64,000 nucleotides of DNA, from assembly GCF_002283555.1 (NCBI RefSeq), contig NZ_MVOI01000006.1, positions 514,040 through 578,039 of the forward strand. The letters run 5' to 3'. Source of the stretch: Rubrivirga sp. SAORIC476 (lineage in GTDB: Bacteria; Bacteroidota; Rhodothermia; Rhodothermales; Rubricoccaceae). Positions 9,352 to 54,634 of this stretch are shown in pieces (position 1 is the stretch's first letter; the number at the start of each line of letters is the position of its first letter). The notes below the pieces were generated by a model that worked only from the letters and a program-made list of their open reading frames with translations, was not told the origin of the DNA and searched no databases. A program made the translations under genes and the position numbers.

Positions 9352-9435
9352 TGCCCGGGACTGGACTCGAACCAGCACGGATTTTACTCCACACGCCCCT
9401 CAAGCGTGCGTGTCTACCAATTTCACCACCCGGGC
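9352..9435 (-). tRNA. tRNA-Leu (GAG)
   Basis: On the minus strand the acceptor arms GCCCGGG and CCCGGGC pair fully. The D-arm contains TGGTAGACAC, the anticodon stem CACGC/GCGTG holds the loop TTGAGGG (anticodon GAG), and the T-arm contains GGTTCGAGTCC. A long variable arm (84 nt in total) is typical of tRNA-Leu. The 3' CCA is not encoded. It lies 41 bp downstream of tRNA-Lys, probably in one transcript. Confidence 0.93.
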
Positions 9436-9476
9436 AGGGTGCGCGCGAGGCGCCGATAAAGAACGTGACCGCAGGG

Positions 9477-9549
9477 TGACCCCGGTAGGGCTCGAACCTA
9501 CGACCCGCTGGTTAAAAGCCAGCTGCTCTGCCAACTGAGCTACGGGGCC
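9477..9549 (-). tRNA. tRNA-Lys (TTT)
   Basis: 73 nt on the minus strand. Acceptor GGCCCCG pairs with CGGGGTC (one G-T). D-arm GCTCAGTTGGCAGAGC, anticodon stem GCTGG/CCAGC with loop CTTTTAA (anticodon TTT), T-arm GGTTCGAGCCC. CCA is not encoded. It has its own promoter-like sequence at 9591-9623 and precedes tRNA-Leu. Confidence 0.95.
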
Positions 9550-9590
9550 TGGCCAGACGGCGGGCGCCGCCATGCGCGGTGGGCAGGCGA

Positions 9591-9623
9591 CCAAACTAGT
9601 CTGGGGGAGGAGGGCCCCGCAAT
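9591..9623 (-). promoter_or_regulatory. Promoter of the tRNA-Lys/tRNA-Leu unit
   Basis: Minus strand: ATTG (9620-9623), a 21-nt spacer, then TAGTTTGG (9598 to 9591), 42 nt before the tRNA-Lys 5' end. This fits the Bacteroidota -33/-7 layout (TTTG ... TAnnTTTG). The tRNA-Gln promoter repeats the same TTG-N21-TAnnTTGG arrangement. Confidence 0.6.
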
Positions 9624-9758
9624 GACTGCATGTGGAGCGCCCGCAAAGACGCCGTGTGCGTGTCACGTAGCGCCGACCCCGGGATGAGGACGGGCCGACA
9701 TGCTGGGCGACCGACTGTAGTGGTCCAGGATCACATAACGACCTAGTTTCCACCCGCC

Positions 9759-10436
9759 ATGCCGCCACCTGACGCCGTCTCCCGCCACGACACTCGCGTC
9801 GGCGAGGTCACGTCGTTGCTGCGCGAGGTCGCCGACGGGGACATGCCGGAGGAAATGCTCGTCGAGCGCCTCATGCCGGTGGTGTACGACGAGCTCCGCG
9901 ACATCGCGCGCGCGCAGCGCCGCCGCTACGACGTGGACGGCTTCCAGACGACTGCCCTCGTCCACGAGGCGTACCTCCGGCTGGCGGGCCAGGCCATGGT
10001 GCCCGACCGCGCCTACGTGTTCGCCTCGGCGGCACGGGCGATGCGCAACGTGCTCGTGGACCACGCCCGGCGACGCCGGACCGCCAAGCGCGGTGGCGAG
10101 GACCAGCCGGTTGGCCTGACGACCGCGGGCACGATTCCAGATGGGGCCGTCGACCTCGACCGGCTCGCGGGCCGACTGCTCGACGTCGACGCGGCGCTGA
10201 CGACGCTCGCAGGGCTCGACGAGCGGGCCGCTCGCGTGGTCGAGTGCCGCTACTTCGGAGGCCTCTCGTTTGAGGAAACGGCCGCGGCGCTCGGCGTCAG
10301 CATGGCCACGGCCAAGCGCGACTGGCGCCGGGCTCGGGCATGGCTCCACCGCGCCCTCTCCGACGACGATGCGGCCCCTGGGACGCCGGCCTCGCCCTCT
10401 GGACACGTTTCGCCTGTGGGTCGCGATGCCGCCTGA
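9759..10436 (+). CDS. ECF-like RNA polymerase sigma factor (TIGR02999/Sigma70_ECF family)
   Basis: 225 aa. Region 2 is recognisable (LRDIARAQRRRYDVDGFQTT, then ALVHEAYLRL and YVFASAARAMRNVLVDHARRR), and region 4 is a helix-turn-helix near residues 155-200 (YFGGLSFEETAAALG ... ATAKRDWRRARAWL). This matches the TIGR02999 ECF-like family, commonly paired with Ser/Thr kinases. It should redirect RNA polymerase to a small regulon. No anti-sigma factor gene is adjacent. Its stop overlaps the kinase start by 11 bp, implying translational coupling and suggesting that the kinase controls it by phosphorylation (inference). A TAGTTTCC motif ends only 8 bases before the ATG (9744-9751). Confidence 0.9.
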   Translation: MPPPDAVSRHDTRVGEVTSLLREVADGDMPEEMLVERLMPVVYDELRDIARAQRRRYDVDGFQTTALVHEAYLRLAGQAMVPDRAYVFASAARAMRNVLVDHARRRRTAKRGGEDQPVGLTTAGTIPDGAVDLDRLAGRLLDVDAALTTLAGLDERAARVVECRYFGGLSFEETAAALGVSMATAKRDWRRARAWLHRALSDDDAAPGTPASPSGHVSPVGRDAA

Positions 10437-13239
10437 CGCCCTCGACGACTCCGCCCGCTGGGCCCGCGTCAGCGACGTGTTCGATGTCGTGGCCGACCTT
10501 CCCATGGCCGAGCGTCCGGCCGCTCTCGACCGCCTCTGCCGCGACGCCGACGGTCACCCCGAGGCGGACCTCCGGGCGGAGGTCGAGAGCCTCCTCGCCG
10601 CCGATGCCGACGCCACCCTCTCGACGCGCTCGCTCCGGCCGGTCGAGTCCGTCGCTGCCGCGGCGCTGCTGACCGATGGCGTTGTGGTGGGCGAGCGGAT
10701 CGGGCCGTGGCGCGTGCTCCGCGAGTTGGGGCGCGGGGGGATGGGCCGCGTCGACCTCGTGGAGCGCGCCGACGGGGTCTACGACCAACGCGCGGCGCTG
10801 AAGCGGCTCGGGCTGGCCGCCGCCGACCGCGTCCGCCAGTTCATCCGCGAGCGCCAGATCCTGGCACGCCTGGAGCACCCGGGCATCTCGCGGCTCCTCG
10901 ACGGCGGCGTGACCGACGACGGGACGCCGTACCTCGTCATGGAGCACGTCGAGGGCGAGCCGATCACCACGGCCGCCGATGCGCGCGGCCTGTCGGTGTC
11001 GGAGCGCGTCCAGCTGTTCATCCAGGTCTGCGATGCGGTCGGCTACGCGCACCGGCACCTCGTCGTCCACCGCGACCTGAAGCCGTCCAACGTGTTCGTG
11101 AGCGAGGACGGCGGGGTCAAGCTTCTCGACTTCGGCATCGCCCGGCTGCTCGACGATGAAGCCGACGGCGGCGTGCGGACGGCGCTCCCGGCGCTCACGC
11201 CCGCCTACGCAGCGCCCGAGCAGGTCGCGGGCGGCGCCATCACGACGGCCACCGACGTGTACGCGCTCGGGGTGCTGCTGTACGAGTTGCTGTCCGGGCA
11301 GCGACCCTACGAGATCGAGCACCCGACGTTGAGCGGCATCGTGCAGGCGGTCGTGGAGACGCGGCATCGTCCGCCGTCGGCTGTGACGCGGGACGAGGCC
11401 CGGCAGCGCGCGCTCCGAGGCGATCTCGACACGGTCGTCATGAAGGCTCTCGACAAGGAACCCGAGCGGCGCTACGGCTCTGCCGACGACTTCGGCGCCG
11501 ACCTCCGGCGTGTGCTGGAGGGGCGCCCCGTCGAGGCCCGCGCGCCGACGGCCGCATACCGGGCGCGGCGCTTCGTCGGGCGGCACCGGACCGGCGTCGT
11601 GCTGAGCGCGCTCGTCGTGCTGGCCGCCGGGGTGGGATTGGGGTCGACCCTGTGGCAGGCGCGGCAGGCGCGCATCGAGGCGGCCACGAGTTCGGCGACG
11701 GCGGCCTTTCTCGGCGACCTGTTCCGAGGCGCGGATCCCACGGCGGCTCCGACCGACACCCTCTCGGCACTGGACCTGCTGGACCGTGGCGCCCGCCGCC
11801 TCGACGGCGGCCTCGCCGACCAGCCCGCCGTCCGTGCGGATCTCTACGCGGTCATCGGGGACGCCTACCTCGGCCTCGGGCGGCCCGACTCGGCGGCGGC
11901 CTTCGCGCGCCGCGTGCTCGCGGTCACGGGGCCGAGCGGGGTGGCGCGGGACGCCGTCGCCGCGGTGCGGGCACGCGTGCTGCTGGCTCGGGCGACGTTC
12001 CCCACGGACCCCGAGGCCGCGGCGGCCGAGTTCGAGCAGGCCGTCGCGGCAGCGCGAGCCAGCGGCGACGATGCTGTGCTCCTGGACGCCCTCGAAGCGC
12101 AGGGCGACCTCGTCGGCTCTCAGGTGCTCTCGCCCGACGAGACCGTCGCCGTGTTCGAGGAGGCGATGGCGCTGTGCCGTCGGCTGGAGGGCGACGACAG
12201 CCCCCGCCTCGGACGCATCCTGGCGATGTTCGCGGGCAAGGCGGCGTCGGCCCACCAGCACGGTCGGATCGAGGGGCTCCTCCGCGACGCCCTCGCACGG
12301 CTCCCCGCCGACGAGGCGCCCTACGACCGCTCCGGCGTGCTCCTCGAACTGGCCAAGATGCTGCACGCGACCGGCCAGCCCGAGGAAGCCGTCGACCGCG
12401 CGGACGAGGCGCTGGCCATCCGCAGGCGCCTCCTCGCTCCGGGCGACCCGCGCATCGGGCACGCCCTCGGGACGCGGGCCAGCATCGGCGGCGGAGGGCC
12501 GATCCAGTCCGAGGCGGACGCGCGGGAGGCGCTCGCCATCGCCGAGCGGCACGCCGACGGGGCGGGCGAGATCGAGGCGTTGGACGGGCTCGGGGCCGCT
12601 CTCTCCAGCCAGGACCGGATGGACGAGGCCGTCGAGGTGTACCGTCGCCGGTTCGTTCGTGCCGGGGAGGTCTACGGCGCGGAAGGAACCCGCTACCCGG
12701 CTGCCTCGGGCACGTACGCGCGGTCCCTGTATCAGGCCGGGCGGTTCGCGGAGGCCTCGCGGGCCTGGGAGACGTCACTGGAACTGACCACGAGCGCCTT
12801 CGGCCCGGAGTCCGCCGTGGTCATGTCCAGTCTCCTCGAAGCGGGCTGGTCGGCCGAGGCCGCAGGCCAGGATGCGCGCGCGGCAGCGTACTACGAGAGG
12901 GCCTACACCGGGAGCCGGGCGTTGTCCGAGACGAGCCGGACGCGGGCGAGTGCCGCACTATGGCTCGGCAAGGCTCGCCTGGATTCCGGACGGAGTCCAG
13001 AAGCGGTGTCGCTGCTCCGAGAAGCCCTCGCCGTGCGCGAGGTGCTCGACCGGCCCACGGCCTCCGGGGAGACAGGGGACGGCATGCGGGCGCAGGCGCT
13101 GCTGGGGGAGGCCCTCATGGAGTCCGGGGAGGAAACCGAGGGGCGCCGTCTCGTCGAGCAGGCCCTTTCGGTCCTCGCCGACGTGTTCGGGCCCGACCAC
13201 CCGGCCACACGGCGGGCACGGGCCGTGCTGCGACGCTAG
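10426..13239 (+). CDS. Hanks-type serine/threonine protein kinase with TM and TPR region
   Basis: 937 aa from ATG 10426. An N-terminal linker (1-85) is followed by the kinase domain (about 93-360): glycine loop GRGGMGRV 102-109, Lys126 in AALKRL, catalytic HRDLKPSN 215-222, DFG 235-237. One transmembrane segment follows (about 395-420; VVLSALVVLAAGVGLGSTLW). The remaining 500 residues are alanine-rich helical repeats of TPR type. The kinase domain is therefore cytoplasmic and the TPR part outside. The gene overlaps the sigma factor by 11 bp, so the pair probably forms one sensing unit in which the kinase acts on the sigma factor (inference from the known pairing of these families). Confidence 0.92.
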   Translation: MPPDALDDSARWARVSDVFDVVADLPMAERPAALDRLCRDADGHPEADLRAEVESLLAADADATLSTRSLRPVESVAAAALLTDGVVVGERIGPWRVLRELGRGGMGRVDLVERADGVYDQRAALKRLGLAAADRVRQFIRERQILARLEHPGISRLLDGGVTDDGTPYLVMEHVEGEPITTAADARGLSVSERVQLFIQVCDAVGYAHRHLVVHRDLKPSNVFVSEDGGVKLLDFGIARLLDDEADGGVRTALPALTPAYAAPEQVAGGAITTATDVYALGVLLYELLSGQRPYEIEHPTLSGIVQAVVETRHRPPSAVTRDEARQRALRGDLDTVVMKALDKEPERRYGSADDFGADLRRVLEGRPVEARAPTAAYRARRFVGRHRTGVVLSALVVLAAGVGLGSTLWQARQARIEAATSSATAAFLGDLFRGADPTAAPTDTLSALDLLDRGARRLDGGLADQPAVRADLYAVIGDAYLGLGRPDSAAAFARRVLAVTGPSGVARDAVAAVRARVLLARATFPTDPEAAAAEFEQAVAAARASGDDAVLLDALEAQGDLVGSQVLSPDETVAVFEEAMALCRRLEGDDSPRLGRILAMFAGKAASAHQHGRIEGLLRDALARLPADEAPYDRSGVLLELAKMLHATGQPEEAVDRADEALAIRRRLLAPGDPRIGHALGTRASIGGGGPIQSEADAREALAIAERHADGAGEIEALDGLGAALSSQDRMDEAVEVYRRRFVRAGEVYGAEGTRYPAASGTYARSLYQAGRFAEASRAWETSLELTTSAFGPESAVVMSSLLEAGWSAEAAGQDARAAAYYERAYTGSRALSETSRTRASAALWLGKARLDSGRSPEAVSLLREALAVREVLDRPTASGETGDGMRAQALLGEALMESGEETEGRRLVEQALSVLADVFGPDHPATRRARAVLRR

Positions 13240-49567: not shown

Positions 49568-52279
49568 ATGCTGGCGGCGCTGGCCGTCGTCCTGGTGCTG
49601 GCGCCCTGCGTGGCCGCGCAGCCCAACGTGATCGTGATCGTGGCCGACGACCTCGGCTTCGGCGACGTCGGCTACAACGGCGCCGAGATCGCCACGCCCC
49701 ACCTCGACCAACTCGCGGCCGAGGGCATCGTGCTGGACCGCTTCTACACCTCGCCGCTCTGCTCGCCGTCGCGCGCCGGCCTCCTCACGGGCCGCTACGG
49801 CCTCCGCATGGGCATCGCCGAGCCCGTCACGATGGCCGACACCGTCGGCCTGCCCCAGGCCGAGACGACCCTCGCCGAGGCCCTCCAGGGCGCCGGCTAC
49901 GAGACCGCCATGGTCGGCAAGTGGCACCTCGGCGACGCCTGCCACCAGCACCCCCGCGCCCACGGGTTCGACTCGTTCCTCGGCGCCGTCAGCGGCGGCG
50001 TCCAGTACTGGACCCGGCAGACGAGCGAGGGCCTCGACTGGTGGCGCGACTACTCGCCGGAGGTGACCGAGGGCTACACCACCGAGTTGATCGCGCAGGA
50101 GGCCGTCGACATCCTGTCCCGACCACGCGACGGGCCGCTGTTCCTCTACCTGCCGTTCACCGCTCCCCACACGCCGCTGCAGGCGCCCGCGGCGGATCTG
50201 GCGCTCTACGACCACCTGCCGGAGCCGCGCCGCACATTCGCGGCGATGGTGACGAACCTGGACCGGGGCATCGGGCAGATCATGGACATCGTGCGCGCGT
50301 CGGGCGAGCCGACGCTGGTGTGGTTCCTCTCGGACAACGGGGCCATTGAGGTGTTCGGTGGCGACAACGGCGCGCTGCGCGGCGGCAAGGGCCAGAGCTG
50401 GGAGGGGGCCGTCCGGGTGCCGTCGGTGGTGTGGTACCCCGCCTGGGGCACGCGCACGATCCAGCACCCGGTGTGGTACCTCGACGTGCTGCCGACCCTC
50501 CTCGGTCAGGTTCCCGGCGCGGCACAGCCACTCCTTCCCCTCGATGGCACCGATCAGAGCGCCTACCTCGCCGGGGCTCCGCCTTCCAGCGACCTCCTCA
50601 ACCGACGCCTGTACACGTACCGCCGGATGAGGGACGGCGGGCACTGGCGCGGCGCCCAGACGGCCCGCTGGAAATACCACGAGAACGTGAGCAGCTCGCG
50701 CACTCGCCGCTACGTGTACGCCATCGACCGGGACCCGATCGAGGAGCGCAACCGCTACGGCCGGGAGCCCCGCGTGGCTCGCGAGTTCAGCGTCGAGGCG
50801 GAGGCCTTCTCGTTGCTCACTCCATCCTGGGCGTCGACCGACACCACGCTTACGACGGTCGACGTGCCGAACCTGGCCGAGTGTGCGGCCAACCCGGCGC
50901 GCATCGCGACGGTGATCGACGGCCCGGCCGGGGCGCGCTACCTCGGCCCGCCCGCCGAGGGCCTCACCGTGGACGACCTCGCCGCGCAGAACCTCGTCCA
51001 GGGTGTGCCCGGCTACTTCCCCGAGGCGACGCCGGTGACCCTCTACACTGGGTACGACGCCACAACGGGCGACTGGGTGCCCTCCGCCGGAGCGGGCGAG
51101 ACCCTCCGCCTCGGCCACGCGTTCCGGTGGCAGATGGTGGACGGCGAGGCGGGCGACCCCACCGTCTCGGTCTCGGTCCCGCGTCCGTTCTCGCTCGGCA
51201 CCGGCCGGCCGGCCAACGAGACCGACGTGCGGATCGTGCTCGACACCGGCGGGAGCCGCATGAACCTGCTCGCCAACCCGTTCGGCGTACCGCTCGACCT
51301 GGGCACCCTCGCCACGTGGGATGGCGCCGACAACCTGAGCCCCACCAGCCCGGTCTGGACCTACGACCCGGTCGCCCGGACGTGGGAGGAGGCGAGCGGT
51401 GTGATCGGCCCGTGGGAGGCGTTCCGCGTTCGGGCGAAGGGCCCACGGGTCTCGGGGAGCCTGCGCACCCTGCGCATCCCGTTCTCTGCGACCGCCCCCA
51501 CCTCGACGCCCCGGACGGCACCGACGCCGGGGCTTCGGTTCACACTGTCCGGTGTCGATGCGGAGGGCGTCCCGGTCGCGGACCGCGCCCTCTCCATCCG
51601 CTTCGAGGAAGGCGCCCGCGACGGGTTCGACGCCGAGGAGGACGTGGAGAAGCTCCAGGTACCCGCCGAGGCGTACGCCCTGATCGGGACGCGCGTCGGT
51701 GGCGCCTTCGTCGGGACCGATGTGCGGTCGTTCGCCGATGCCGAGATCCCGCTCGCCATCGAGGCCCGCGGGACGGCGGCGAGGGCCACGCTGGCGTGGG
51801 ACGCGAGCGCGCTCCCAGCAGGGCTGCCGGTCGTGTTGGTGGACCTCGCGACGGGCACCGAGACCGACGTGCGGACCCGGTCGAGCGTCACGCTCGACCT
51901 CTCCACACGGACCGCTCATGAGGAGATCCCGCTCCACGACCTCGCCGACGGGTTGGCCGCGGCCGACCGATTTGTGCTCCGCATTGGCACGCCGCGGGTC
52001 TCGGCCGAGGGGGCCGTGACGGAAGTGGTCCTGGAGCCTGTGGCGCCGAACCCCTCCTCCGGCTCGGCTCGGGTGGCCTTCGCGCTCCCCGAGGCGGGCT
52101 CGGTCCGGCTGACGGTGGTCGACGTCCGAGGGCGCGAGGTGGCCCTGTTGGCCGAGGGGCCGTGGGCGGCCGGGCGGCACGAGACCCGCCTCGGCGCCGC
52201 GCTGGCGGCAGGCGTCTATGTGGTCCGACTCGAAGCCGGGGGGACCGTCGTCACGCGTCAGGCGGTGGTCGTCCGCTGA
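49568..52279 (+). CDS. Secreted sulfatase with shared module and T9SS sorting domain
   Basis: 903 aa from ATG 49568 (an ATG 12 bp earlier is the alternative), beginning with a signal peptide (LAALAVVLVLAPCVAAQ). Sulfatase features: PNVIVIVADDLGFGD (metal Asp27, Asp28), the formylglycine motif C65-SPSR, VGKWHLG, and LSDNGA near residue 257. The Cys-type motif needs a formylglycine-generating enzyme, not seen here. The catalytic domain is compact (about 410 aa); from residue 446 the 458-aa shared block follows, ending in the T9SS sorting domain. Likely removes sulfate from exogenous polysaccharides or small aryl sulfates. A TATCCTTC element lies at 49524-49531. Confidence 0.92.
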   Translation: MLAALAVVLVLAPCVAAQPNVIVIVADDLGFGDVGYNGAEIATPHLDQLAAEGIVLDRFYTSPLCSPSRAGLLTGRYGLRMGIAEPVTMADTVGLPQAETTLAEALQGAGYETAMVGKWHLGDACHQHPRAHGFDSFLGAVSGGVQYWTRQTSEGLDWWRDYSPEVTEGYTTELIAQEAVDILSRPRDGPLFLYLPFTAPHTPLQAPAADLALYDHLPEPRRTFAAMVTNLDRGIGQIMDIVRASGEPTLVWFLSDNGAIEVFGGDNGALRGGKGQSWEGAVRVPSVVWYPAWGTRTIQHPVWYLDVLPTLLGQVPGAAQPLLPLDGTDQSAYLAGAPPSSDLLNRRLYTYRRMRDGGHWRGAQTARWKYHENVSSSRTRRYVYAIDRDPIEERNRYGREPRVAREFSVEAEAFSLLTPSWASTDTTLTTVDVPNLAECAANPARIATVIDGPAGARYLGPPAEGLTVDDLAAQNLVQGVPGYFPEATPVTLYTGYDATTGDWVPSAGAGETLRLGHAFRWQMVDGEAGDPTVSVSVPRPFSLGTGRPANETDVRIVLDTGGSRMNLLANPFGVPLDLGTLATWDGADNLSPTSPVWTYDPVARTWEEASGVIGPWEAFRVRAKGPRVSGSLRTLRIPFSATAPTSTPRTAPTPGLRFTLSGVDAEGVPVADRALSIRFEEGARDGFDAEEDVEKLQVPAEAYALIGTRVGGAFVGTDVRSFADAEIPLAIEARGTAARATLAWDASALPAGLPVVLVDLATGTETDVRTRSSVTLDLSTRTAHEEIPLHDLADGLAAADRFVLRIGTPRVSAEGAVTEVVLEPVAPNPSSGSARVAFALPEAGSVRLTVVDVRGREVALLAEGPWAAGRHETRLGAALAAGVYVVRLEAGGTVVTRQAVVVR

Positions 52280-52291
52280 CCGGAACGAGAG

Positions 52292-52325
52292 AGCCCCGCC
52301 GTCGACGCAGGTCGGCGGCGGGGCT
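52292..52325 (+). terminator. Terminator-like hairpin after the sulfatase gene
   Basis: AGCCCCGCCG (52292-52301) / CGGCGGGGCT (52316-52325), 13 bases after the stop and followed by TTC. Similar in sequence to the subtilase terminator. Confidence 0.7.
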
Positions 52326-52372
52326 TCAGATGTCCCGTCGAAGCAGGGGAGCCGTCTACGCGGAAGGCTCTG

Positions 52373-52561
52373 CTACGAAACGTAGAAGTTGGGATTCTCG
52401 TTATTCTTCGGCGCGGCGCCGCCACCGGTCTCGTCGGCGAGGTGAATGGAGTCGATCTGGGGAGGGGACCAGGGGCGGCGATGAGGGGCAGCGGTGCGCT
52501 GCCGCGCGACCTGTTTGCCGTCAGACGAACTCGGGCCCGTGTAACCTGAGGGTGCTGGCAT
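52373..52561 (-). CDS. Putative lasso-peptide (RiPP) precursor
   Basis: 62 aa, ATG 52561 to TAG 52373-52375. The leader ends W31-S-P-P-Q-I ... H-L-A-D-E-T45-G46; Thr45 would be at position -2, the conserved lasso leader threonine. The core would be 16 residues, starting G47-G-A-A-P-K-N-N-E55 and ending N-P-N-F59-Y60-V-S. Glu55 is position +9, a standard acceptor for a nine-residue macrolactam ring with Gly47, and Phe59/Tyr60 could act as plugs. W-x-x-P-x-I resembles the YxxPxL motif bound by RiPP recognition elements. About three quarters of codons end in G/C, lower than neighbouring genes. The cyclase gene lies 171 bp upstream on the same strand. A weak TACTTACT element lies 28 nt before the ATG. 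No homology search was possible. Confidence 0.6.
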   Translation of the reverse strand: MPAPSGYTGPSSSDGKQVARQRTAAPHRRPWSPPQIDSIHLADETGGGAAPKNNENPNFYVS

Positions 52562-52732
52562 GGGGGGGAGGGAAGGGAACGAGTAAGTACGCGTCAGAGA
52601 GGCTCCACCCTGTCGTGAGATCCCACTGTTCGAGTCCGAAATCTTTTCGGGGGGCAGACACCTGCGGATAGAGGGCCCGTGGGAGGATCGGCCGAGCCTG
52701 GCGCGAGGTATGGGTCGGCAAGGAGAACGAGC

Positions 52733-54490
52733 CTAACGTCTTAAAAGTGCTCCGATCCCCAGGTATCGAATCCCGTCCAGTGAGACCACTTCCCAGGGCG
52801 TCGGTGCGACAGGGAGGGCACGGACGGCAGCACGCAGGCGGTCGACATCGACGAAGGTGGCGCGATCTGCCACCGCGGCGGGCGTCAGCATGGGCCCCAC
52901 CCGGCGGAGAGCATCGGCCTGGGCACGGAGCAGGGTCGCGTTCCACGACGGCTCGCGCTTGCCGCCGAGGCGGACCGCGTCTGGCACCAGCCCGGCCAGG
53001 GCTTCGCGGAACGGCCTGCGGCGCAGGCGGTCGCGGGTGGCCCAGGCCTCGGCGGGAACGCCCAGCGCGACGGCCAGCACGCGGCGGTCCAGGAGCGGGT
53101 AGCGGGTCCGGATGCCCACCTCGGCGCCCGTCAGCGCCCACGACCCCGCACGCGCGCCGAGGTGGCCGCGCCGGAGGAGCCACGCGGCGTAGCCATGGGG
53201 ATCGGAGGGGGGCGGTGCGAGCGTGGGGAAAGTGGCCTGCCGGAGCCATTCCACACGGGCGAAGGTGTCCTGCTCGCCTCGGAGCGCGCCCTCCCGGAGG
53301 GCATCGAACGACGGCTCGGGTCCGCTGACGCGTCGGGCGGCTCGGTACGTGCGGAGGCGTCGGAGCACCTCGACCGGATCGCGCAGCGCACGCTCGGCGA
53401 CCGGCCCCCAGCGGCCCGTCCGCAGCAGGTGCGGCGTCACGAGCCGTCGCCCGCTGAAGCTGGCGGCTTCGTCGCCCCCCCAGCCGGAGAGCAGCAGCCG
53501 CGTGCCTCGCACCTCGGCCTCGCGCAGCGTCGCCGCGTTGGGCGCATGCATCACGTGGGGCTCGCGGGTCGCGTCTCCGGTGAGCGTGGCGAGGATGTCG
53601 TCGGCAGTGGGCGGCGCCCAGACGAGGGGGAGCCCCCACCGCTCGGCCGTCGCCGCGACGGCGGCCTGGTCGACCTCGGGCGGACCGACGGGTGCCGGTA
53701 GCCACGAGTAGGCTGTGGGCGAGGCGAGCCCGCGCTCCGCGAGGGCCTCCGCCGCGAATGCCGTCACCGCCGACGAGTCGAGCCCGCTCGAGAGGTGGGT
53801 GCCGACTGTCCCGGGCGGTGCGTCCGCGATCGCCTCGGCAGTCACCTCGCGCAGGACGGCTCGGAGCGCCTCCCCGATCTCCTCTACGCGTCGGAACGGA
53901 AGGCGCGGGAAGGCCTCGGGGGACCAGGTCCGGTCCTCCCGCGCGCCATCGGCGTCGACGGTCAGACGGTGGCCGCCCTTCAGGCAGGCGACGGCGCGGA
54001 GGGCGGTGCGGCCGACCGTCTCAGGCTGAAACAGCGGGTCGAGGAAGACGGCCGCCAGCATGTCCTCGTCGAGCGCGTCCGGCACGGCCGGGTCGGTGAG
54101 GACCGCCCGCACATCGCCCCCGAGGACGATCTGGCCGGGGCGGTGGGCGTACACGAGGGGGCGGAGCCCGACCGGGTCGCGGTGGGCCACGACGGCCTGT
54201 TGCCGTCCGTCCCAGACGGCGAACGCGAACGCCCCCCCCAGGCGGTCGGCGGCTTCGGCGCCCCAGCGGCGGACCGCCGCGAGTACGAGGTCGGCGTCGG
54301 TCTCCACGCCCGTCGTGGGCAGGCCGAGCGCGCGGCGGAGGGCGGCGACCTCCATCAGGTCGAGGTCTGCGTAGAGCAGGTGGACGCCGTCCTCCCCGGC
54401 CCAGGTCTCCAGTGACACCGATGCGGCGGCCAGGGGCCCGCGTACGGCGTCGTCGCCCGGACGGAGGGGAGCGGAACGGGACACCGTCAC
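52733..54490 (-). CDS. Asparagine-synthetase-like protein, candidate lasso-peptide cyclase
   Basis: 585 aa from GTG 54490 (GTG 54484 is nearly equivalent); longer frames run into the tRNA-Gln gene. The N-terminal domain (about 25-200) has the class II glutamine-amidotransferase fold pattern (AFAFAVWDGRQQAVVAHRDPVG ... LKGGHRL) but no N-terminal catalytic Cys, so it cannot use glutamine. The synthetase domain has the ATP pyrophosphatase loop LSSGLDSSA (233-241) and LLSGWGGDEAASFSGR (333-348). Missing Cys plus intact ATP loop is the state of lasso cyclases (McjC) and beta-lactam synthetases, which adenylate a carboxylate to make an amide. The neighbouring precursor-like peptide favours the lasso role. 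No B1/B2 peptidase is present in the window. Confidence 0.8.
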   Translation of the reverse strand: MTVSRSAPLRPGDDAVRGPLAAASVSLETWAGEDGVHLLYADLDLMEVAALRRALGLPTTGVETDADLVLAAVRRWGAEAADRLGGAFAFAVWDGRQQAVVAHRDPVGLRPLVYAHRPGQIVLGGDVRAVLTDPAVPDALDEDMLAAVFLDPLFQPETVGRTALRAVACLKGGHRLTVDADGAREDRTWSPEAFPRLPFRRVEEIGEALRAVLREVTAEAIADAPPGTVGTHLSSGLDSSAVTAFAAEALAERGLASPTAYSWLPAPVGPPEVDQAAVAATAERWGLPLVWAPPTADDILATLTGDATREPHVMHAPNAATLREAEVRGTRLLLSGWGGDEAASFSGRRLVTPHLLRTGRWGPVAERALRDPVEVLRRLRTYRAARRVSGPEPSFDALREGALRGEQDTFARVEWLRQATFPTLAPPPSDPHGYAAWLLRRGHLGARAGSWALTGAEVGIRTRYPLLDRRVLAVALGVPAEAWATRDRLRRRPFREALAGLVPDAVRLGGKREPSWNATLLRAQADALRRVGPMLTPAAVADRATFVDVDRLRAAVRALPVAPTPWEVVSLDGIRYLGIGALLRR

Positions 54491-54523
54491 GGGGCGAGGG
54501 GGAGGGAGGGCCTCAACGAGAAA

Positions 54524-54555
54524 ACGCCCCTGGCGGCGTGGGCCGTCAGGGGCGT
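54524..54555 (-). terminator. Intrinsic terminator of tRNA-Gln
   Basis: On the minus strand, ACGCCCCTG (54555-54547) and CAGGGGCGT (54532-54524) form a 9-bp stem followed by TTTTC. It starts 7 bases past the tRNA and lies 34 bp before the cyclase GTG. Confidence 0.8.
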
Positions 54556-54561
54556 CTCGTG

Positions 54562-54634
54562 CTGCCCGACAAGGAATCGAACCTTGAACCTCCAGATCCA
54601 GAAACTGGCGCTCTGCCAATTGAGCTATCGGGCA
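54562..54634 (-). tRNA. tRNA-Gln (CTG)
   Basis: 73 nt on the minus strand. Acceptor TGCCCGA pairs with TCGGGCA; D-arm GCTCAATTGGCAGAGC; anticodon stem CCAGT/TCTGG (closing T-T) with loop TTCTGGA, anticodon CTG; T-arm GGTTCGATTCC. CCA is not encoded. Has its own promoter and terminator. Confidence 0.92.

Follow-up and report, generated by a model that had tools for sequence, protein, structure and literature searches.

Among described lasso peptide systems, the paeninodin type of Paenibacillus, with the gene order C-A-B1-B2-D and an HprK-like kinase, is closest to the locus considered here. In this system, B1 binds the leader only, and B1 and B2 cleave the precursor without C (PMC5067487). Because B1 and B2 work independently of C, leader processing should be shareable, with each core having its own cyclase. 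For microcin J25, on the other hand, PMC5067487 states that McjB and McjC were suggested to be interdependent, and this would speak against the sharing of B1 and B2. In paeninodin-type systems, the C-terminal Ser of the precursor is the phosphorylation target of HprK-like kinases (PMC8498205, PMC9266682). Furthermore, some lasso clusters of Firmicutes were noted to contain a putative sulfotransferase gene (PMC8498205), although its action is unproven.

We analyzed a 64,000-nucleotide stretch of DNA (the window) that carries a cyclase gene (C) followed by a precursor gene (A). This order and the C-terminal Ser of the precursor are shared with paeninodin-type loci. However, the window locus consists of C and A only, and B1 and B2 would have to act in trans. 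A second locus in the same genome (L005, here called the hub) resembles the paeninodin type in its split B1 (a leader-reading PqqD protein) and B2 and in its kinase homolog, but it also encodes a sulfotransferase and lacks a neighboring ABC transporter. We found the gene set of the hub in HprK-sulfotransferase-PqqD-C clusters of Sphingopyxis, Leptolyngbyaceae, Acidobacteria, and others, where 16-residue cores have E9 and a terminal Ser (e.g., AGFLPGSVENPVYFPS and GGPITSAPEQPFYSVS). Unlike the isolated C-A pair of the window, these genes are clustered, and their cyclases are ~25 to 35% identical to the window cyclase. The bsf cluster of Bradymonas sediminis also has separate B1, B2, and kinase genes, with an FG-GAP protein at its border, but it differs in having Ile rather than Thr at position -2, phosphorylation of Ser3, and a single compact cluster (PMC10368454). 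The only related precedent that we found for distributed lasso enzymes comes from the citrulassins, whose tailoring enzyme, a deiminase, is encoded away from the lasso cluster (PMC12971885). There the remote gene encodes a tailoring enzyme, whereas in the present genome B1 and B2, which process the leader, are the remote components.

The gene pair and its insertion site

The cyclase gene (585 aa; positions 52733 to 54490, minus strand) encodes a glutaminase-dead homolog of asparagine synthetase, identified by PF00733, NF033535, a phylogeny, and an AlphaFold model. Transcribed in the same direction, from 54490 to 52733, it is followed after a 171-bp gap by precursor A (62 aa; 52373 to 52561, minus strand, read from 52561 to 52373), which we recognized from the list of open reading frames, a motif scan, and homologous precursors at L005 and L046. 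A preliminary description of this DNA had placed both genes correctly, and its assignments of Thr45, Gly46, Gly47, Glu55, Phe59, and Tyr60 were also accurate. The start codon of the precursor is uncertain, and there is no second in-frame ATG.

The precursor has the sequence MPAPSGYTGPSSSDGKQVARQRTAAPHRRPWSPPQIDSIHLADETG/GGAAPKNNENPNFYVS, where the slash marks the predicted boundary of leader and core. Its leader contains a WxxP motif at the YxxP position (WSPP, residues 31 to 34; 52460 to 52471, minus strand), 14 residues before Thr45, which occupies leader position -2. Since Gly46, Gly47, and Gly48 are consecutive, the exact cleavage site is a prediction; the Thr(-2) rule and the relatives lead us to take Gly47 as position +1. 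The predicted core (52376 to 52423, minus strand) has 16 residues with Glu55 (+9) as the sole acid, which would give a ring from Gly1 to Glu9 and a seven-residue tail, NPNFYVS, with a C-terminal Ser. This predicted ring and core length, proposed previously, are supported. Both close relatives have E9 and the Y[AV]S ending in common with the window. Phe13 and Tyr14 of the tail are possible plugs. The computed monoisotopic mass of the predicted core minus water is 1659.764 Da, with a predicted [M+H]+ of 1660.771.

The pair lies beside a conserved anchor, the tRNA-Gln(CTG) gene next to plsC (54561 to 54634, minus strand). The terminator hairpin of this tRNA (54524 to 54555, minus strand) is 33 bp upstream of the cyclase start, and a similar hairpin follows tRNA-Gln at three other loci (L090, L092, and L093). 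On the opposite side, a secreted-protein gene ends at 52279. The plsC-tRNA-Gln(CTG) block is kept in six relatives, with ribD beside it in five, and none of the six has a cyclase after tRNA-Gln in the DNA fetched. In the same-genus genome G003, the tail of a similar secreted-protein gene is within about 90 bp of the tRNA-Gln terminator. Because the relatives have the tRNA block without the pair, the window appears to carry an insert of ~2.2 kb made up of just C and A (52280 to 54523), which would extend from the end of the secreted-protein gene to the tRNA-Gln terminator. Insertion in the window would be preferred over loss in all of the relatives, which is the less economical scenario. A site-specific integrase origin was not supported, because no duplication of the tRNA 3' end (attachment site) was detected in the window. 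A scan for sigma-70-like promoters upstream of the pair gave no match, nor did one for the Bacteroidota-type promoter pattern. In G003, the secreted-protein gene tail beside tRNA-Gln is broken (L090, near 9385 to 9650), whereas its counterpart in the window is intact.

Relatives of the cyclase and the precursor

The window cyclase matched the Pfam Asn_synthase family (PF00733) and a GATase profile without the first ~50 profile positions. It lacks the N-terminal catalytic Cys but keeps SSGLDSS and GWGGDE, in agreement with the earlier description of a glutaminase-dead enzyme. An affinity to McjC-type cyclases, also raised previously, was borne out in part. Specifically, the lasso cyclase model NF033535 was the best NCBIfam match (145 bits versus 111 for asparagine synthase), but the score was far below the curated cut-off of 525, which is an annotation threshold and not a functional feature. 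Cyclases linked to B genes also score below this value, including the hub paralog (138) and several other relatives (137 to 406), and most of those tested fall short.

Scanning the named genomes with the window cyclase alone returned nothing, whereas a three-sequence alignment recovered 79 related loci. At most of these, the cyclase is accompanied by B1, B2, and/or an HprK-like kinase and sulfotransferase, and T(-2)/acid precursors with a final Ser occur at many of them. A tree of 94 rows united the cyclases of the window, the hub, and G003 in a clade with 100% support. Its sister group was a pair of cyclases from an Actinomycetes MAG; one member of the pair (L097) has B1 and B2 as neighbors, together with precursors that read ETG/GGYADWIDE.... 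The true AsnB of the genome (L009, 898 bits to AsnB) fell outside the lasso cyclase clade. The window cyclase is therefore placed, with full support and as anticipated earlier, among cyclases linked to B1 and B2 and not with AsnB. The three genus cyclases are about equally distant from one another (53 to 57% identity; window versus hub, 55% in the search and 53% over the full-length alignment), and the split from the hub copy is therefore old.

The AlphaFold model of the window cyclase (pLDDT, 89.5) has the AsnB/beta-lactam-synthetase fold. The likeness to beta-lactam synthetases is common to the whole superfamily; these enzymes were compared by fold only and were not among the sequence-profile matches of the cyclase. 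The closest solved relative by sequence is the hydroxyamidotransferase TsnB9. This kinship, the similar folds of AsnB and beta-lactam synthetase, and the fact that threading is not readable from sequence would be compatible with the pair making an unthreaded (branched cyclic) macrolactam or some other asparagine-synthetase-like amide product. We consider such a product improbable, given that, across the clade, homologous cyclases stand beside lasso B1 and B2 genes and precursors with the pattern T(-2)/G,S,A(+1)/E,D(8-9).

The hub precursor, located after its cyclase, ends PWTAPALTTLDLTGETE/TGTQDFSSESSFPNDQRYAS, and the G003 cyclase is accompanied by a precursor ending RRPWTPPAVTVIELDQTK/AGGLPFADETTFPSSESYAS. 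When aligned to these two, the window precursor reads RRPWSPPQIDSIHLADETG/GGAAPKNNENPNFYVS. In all three, WxxP precedes Thr(-2) by 13 to 14 residues, position +9 is Glu, and the peptide finishes with Y[AV]S, with a leader consensus of PWxxP..[ILV]..[ILV].L..(E)T in which the motif is WSPP in the window and WTAP or WTPP in the relatives. Of the expected conservation of T(-2), G1, and E9, the Thr and Glu were confirmed, while the residue at +1 differs among the three precursors (G, T, and A). Other first core residues have been documented, such as Asn in metanodin (PMC12670498). No NCBIfam or Pfam precursor model recognizes the precursors of the window, L005, or L046, and the window peptide had no match to any other family in these collections. 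Searching the relatives with the short peptide yielded mostly chance matches, with the exception of the one beside the G003 cyclase.

The pattern WxxP...T(-2)...[DE]...Ser-stop had 54 occurrences in 0.61 Mb of DNA surrounding lasso genes versus 9 in 0.97 Mb of control DNA, and most of these 9 resemble genuine precursors in the same loci. When the local 1.45 kb was subjected to dinucleotide shuffling, the pattern arose in 0.03% of 3,000 trials. From these sequence comparisons, we take the 62-aa peptide to be a real lasso precursor. The preliminary reading of a lasso precursor with a lasso-type cyclase thus stands, on the strength of WxxP and Thr(-2), the homologous precursors, and the B-linked clade.

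Since the hub cyclase is a close paralog and the window and hub precursors share C-terminal residues, it is conceivable that the hub cyclase cyclizes the window precursor while the window cyclase acts on a different one. Such a swap is highly improbable. The adjacency of C and A, in that order, is kept at all three genus loci, the cores of these loci differ in length and sequence, and there is no other motif-matching precursor-like open reading frame near the cyclase in the window.

Leader-processing genes in the genome

Whole-genome profile searches (4.48 Mb, 97.5% complete) detected no B1 or B2 near the window pair. The genome has one B2 over the cut-off (C6:480381-480749) and, adjoining it, one PqqD gene (B1; C6:479902-480099). 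Both belong to the hub, a full cluster of precursor, cyclase, sulfotransferase, HprK-like kinase, PqqD (B1), and B2 on the same contig as the window pair but 86 kb distant. A third lasso locus in the same genome (L200, 7527 to 10548, corresponding to positions 1601526 to 1604547 of contig C3 of G000) comprises a cyclase (626 aa, 320 bits to NF033535), a precursor (...RRPFVAPAVMDLGTLHTLTE/GGGPVPLDALGESIGGGGVS), and an HprK-like kinase. Its core, GGGPVPLDALGESIGGGGVS, comes with T(-2) and D8, and no B1 or B2 was found at the locus. With both L200 and the window pair lacking B genes, the genome thus has three cyclases with precursors but one B1 and one B2. An assembly gap is unlikely to account for the missing genes, because the two B-less loci lie 566 kb into a contig of 993 kb and 1.60 Mb into a contig of 2.16 Mb. 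A diverged protease may have escaped the B2 models. Both full clusters also contain a fusion of ~1070 aa that combines an ArsP_1-type permease, FG-GAP repeats, and a UnbV/ASPIC domain (L005, 1770 to 4994; L046, 10102 to 13305) and that might serve in export or immunity.

The preliminary description held that the pair makes a lasso peptide, and this part of the claim is not supported as worded. B1 and B2 exist only in the paralogous full cluster 86 kb away, and the pair would therefore depend on trans-acting enzymes. With the sole leader-cutting machinery of the genome at that distance, we regard the pair as a probable plug-in to a common maturation hub. We assign a probability of about 75% to the reading that it is an A-C satellite cassette whose precursor is processed in trans by leader-reading enzymes of such a hub.

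From the genes, motifs, homology, counts, and insertion site that are directly visible, we infer a course of cleavage, cyclization, threading, trans action, and tailoring for the window peptide. The single PqqD-type B1 of the hub would read the window leader (WxxP ... Thr(-2)), and the single B2 protease would cut the precursor after Gly46. The local cyclase would then adenylate Glu55 and couple it to the Gly47 amine, and the product would have a 9-residue ring and a 7-residue tail and would probably be threaded. The HprK-like kinase and sulfotransferase of the hub may also act on this product, which keeps the C-terminal Ser; among the lasso loci of this genome, HprK-like kinase genes are present at the hub and L200 only. 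Because B1 and B2 would read a conserved leader and C a differing core, A and C could move as a unit. Recognition of the window leader by the hub B1 is not certain, however, since the window and hub leaders are identical at only 7 of 19 positions.

The local absence of B genes could also mean that the pair is a relict, a nonworking copy of a lasso cluster that has lost its B genes, and the dN/dS values from comparison with the relatives (0.49 and 0.59) are only moderately low. We view decay of this kind as unlikely. Both reading frames are intact despite deep divergence, the cyclase keeps its ATP loop, GWGGDE, and a late Lys, and the precursor keeps the leader motif, T(-2), E9, and the C-terminal Ser. 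Moreover, L200 and gammaproteobacterial genomes have the same B-less layout with intact genes.

Isolated cyclases in other genomes

Separation of cyclases from B2 was also observed elsewhere. G010, a relative from the same order with a one-contig genome, has 0.88 Mb between its cyclase locus and its B2 locus. Across nine gammaproteobacterial chromosomes, there were 45 strong cyclase matches and 10 B2 genes, and for 37 of the 45 cyclases the nearest B2 was more than 20 kb away; one chromosome had 11 strong cyclase matches and one B2. PqqD genes numbered 1 to 5 per gammaproteobacterial genome. Leaders of the KRPW[AS]KP type, followed by varied cores ending in Ser, were found near many of the isolated gammaproteobacterial cyclases, although not all.

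These counts tilt us toward a more general proposal, in which several A-C cassettes, each inserting as a unit at scattered sites such as tRNA ends, depend on one leader-reading B1/B2 hub. Under such a hub-and-satellite organization, there would be two satellites in the present genome and up to about ten per chromosome in some gammaproteobacteria. The growth of lasso repertoires would be simply accounted for if a two-gene unit is copied instead of a whole cluster. If one B1/B2 pair matures many cores, the division of labor, with the leader read by B1/B2 and the core by C, turns into a rule that can be tested directly and into a natural model for combinatorial lasso production. Mining tools that require adjacent A, B, and C genes would overlook or drop such pairs. 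The chemistry is already known and the peptide is a new member, while the hub-and-satellite organization looks new. No description of it was found in the literature searched, mostly non-subscription papers, nor was any paper on lasso peptides of this bacterial group, which is weak evidence.

Several further loci have features of their own. At L052, three leader-bearing peptides (9829 to 9978, 10033 to 10188, and 10357 to 10575; e.g., ...EVTTGKCWYGKQGGRYDADLGPSTLSDCR) are without an acid at +7 to +9. They adjoin a lasso-type cyclase, a kinase, PqqD, and an ABC transporter, and the B2 of that genome is 0.88 Mb off. Each of the gammaproteobacterial genomes G114 to G118 and G120 (loci L107 to L120 and L171) has one B2 gene but 4 to 11 strong cyclase matches. 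Finally, near-identical duplicated precursors occur a few kilobases from isolated cyclases at L114 (13060 to 14075) and L156 (11934 to 13766).
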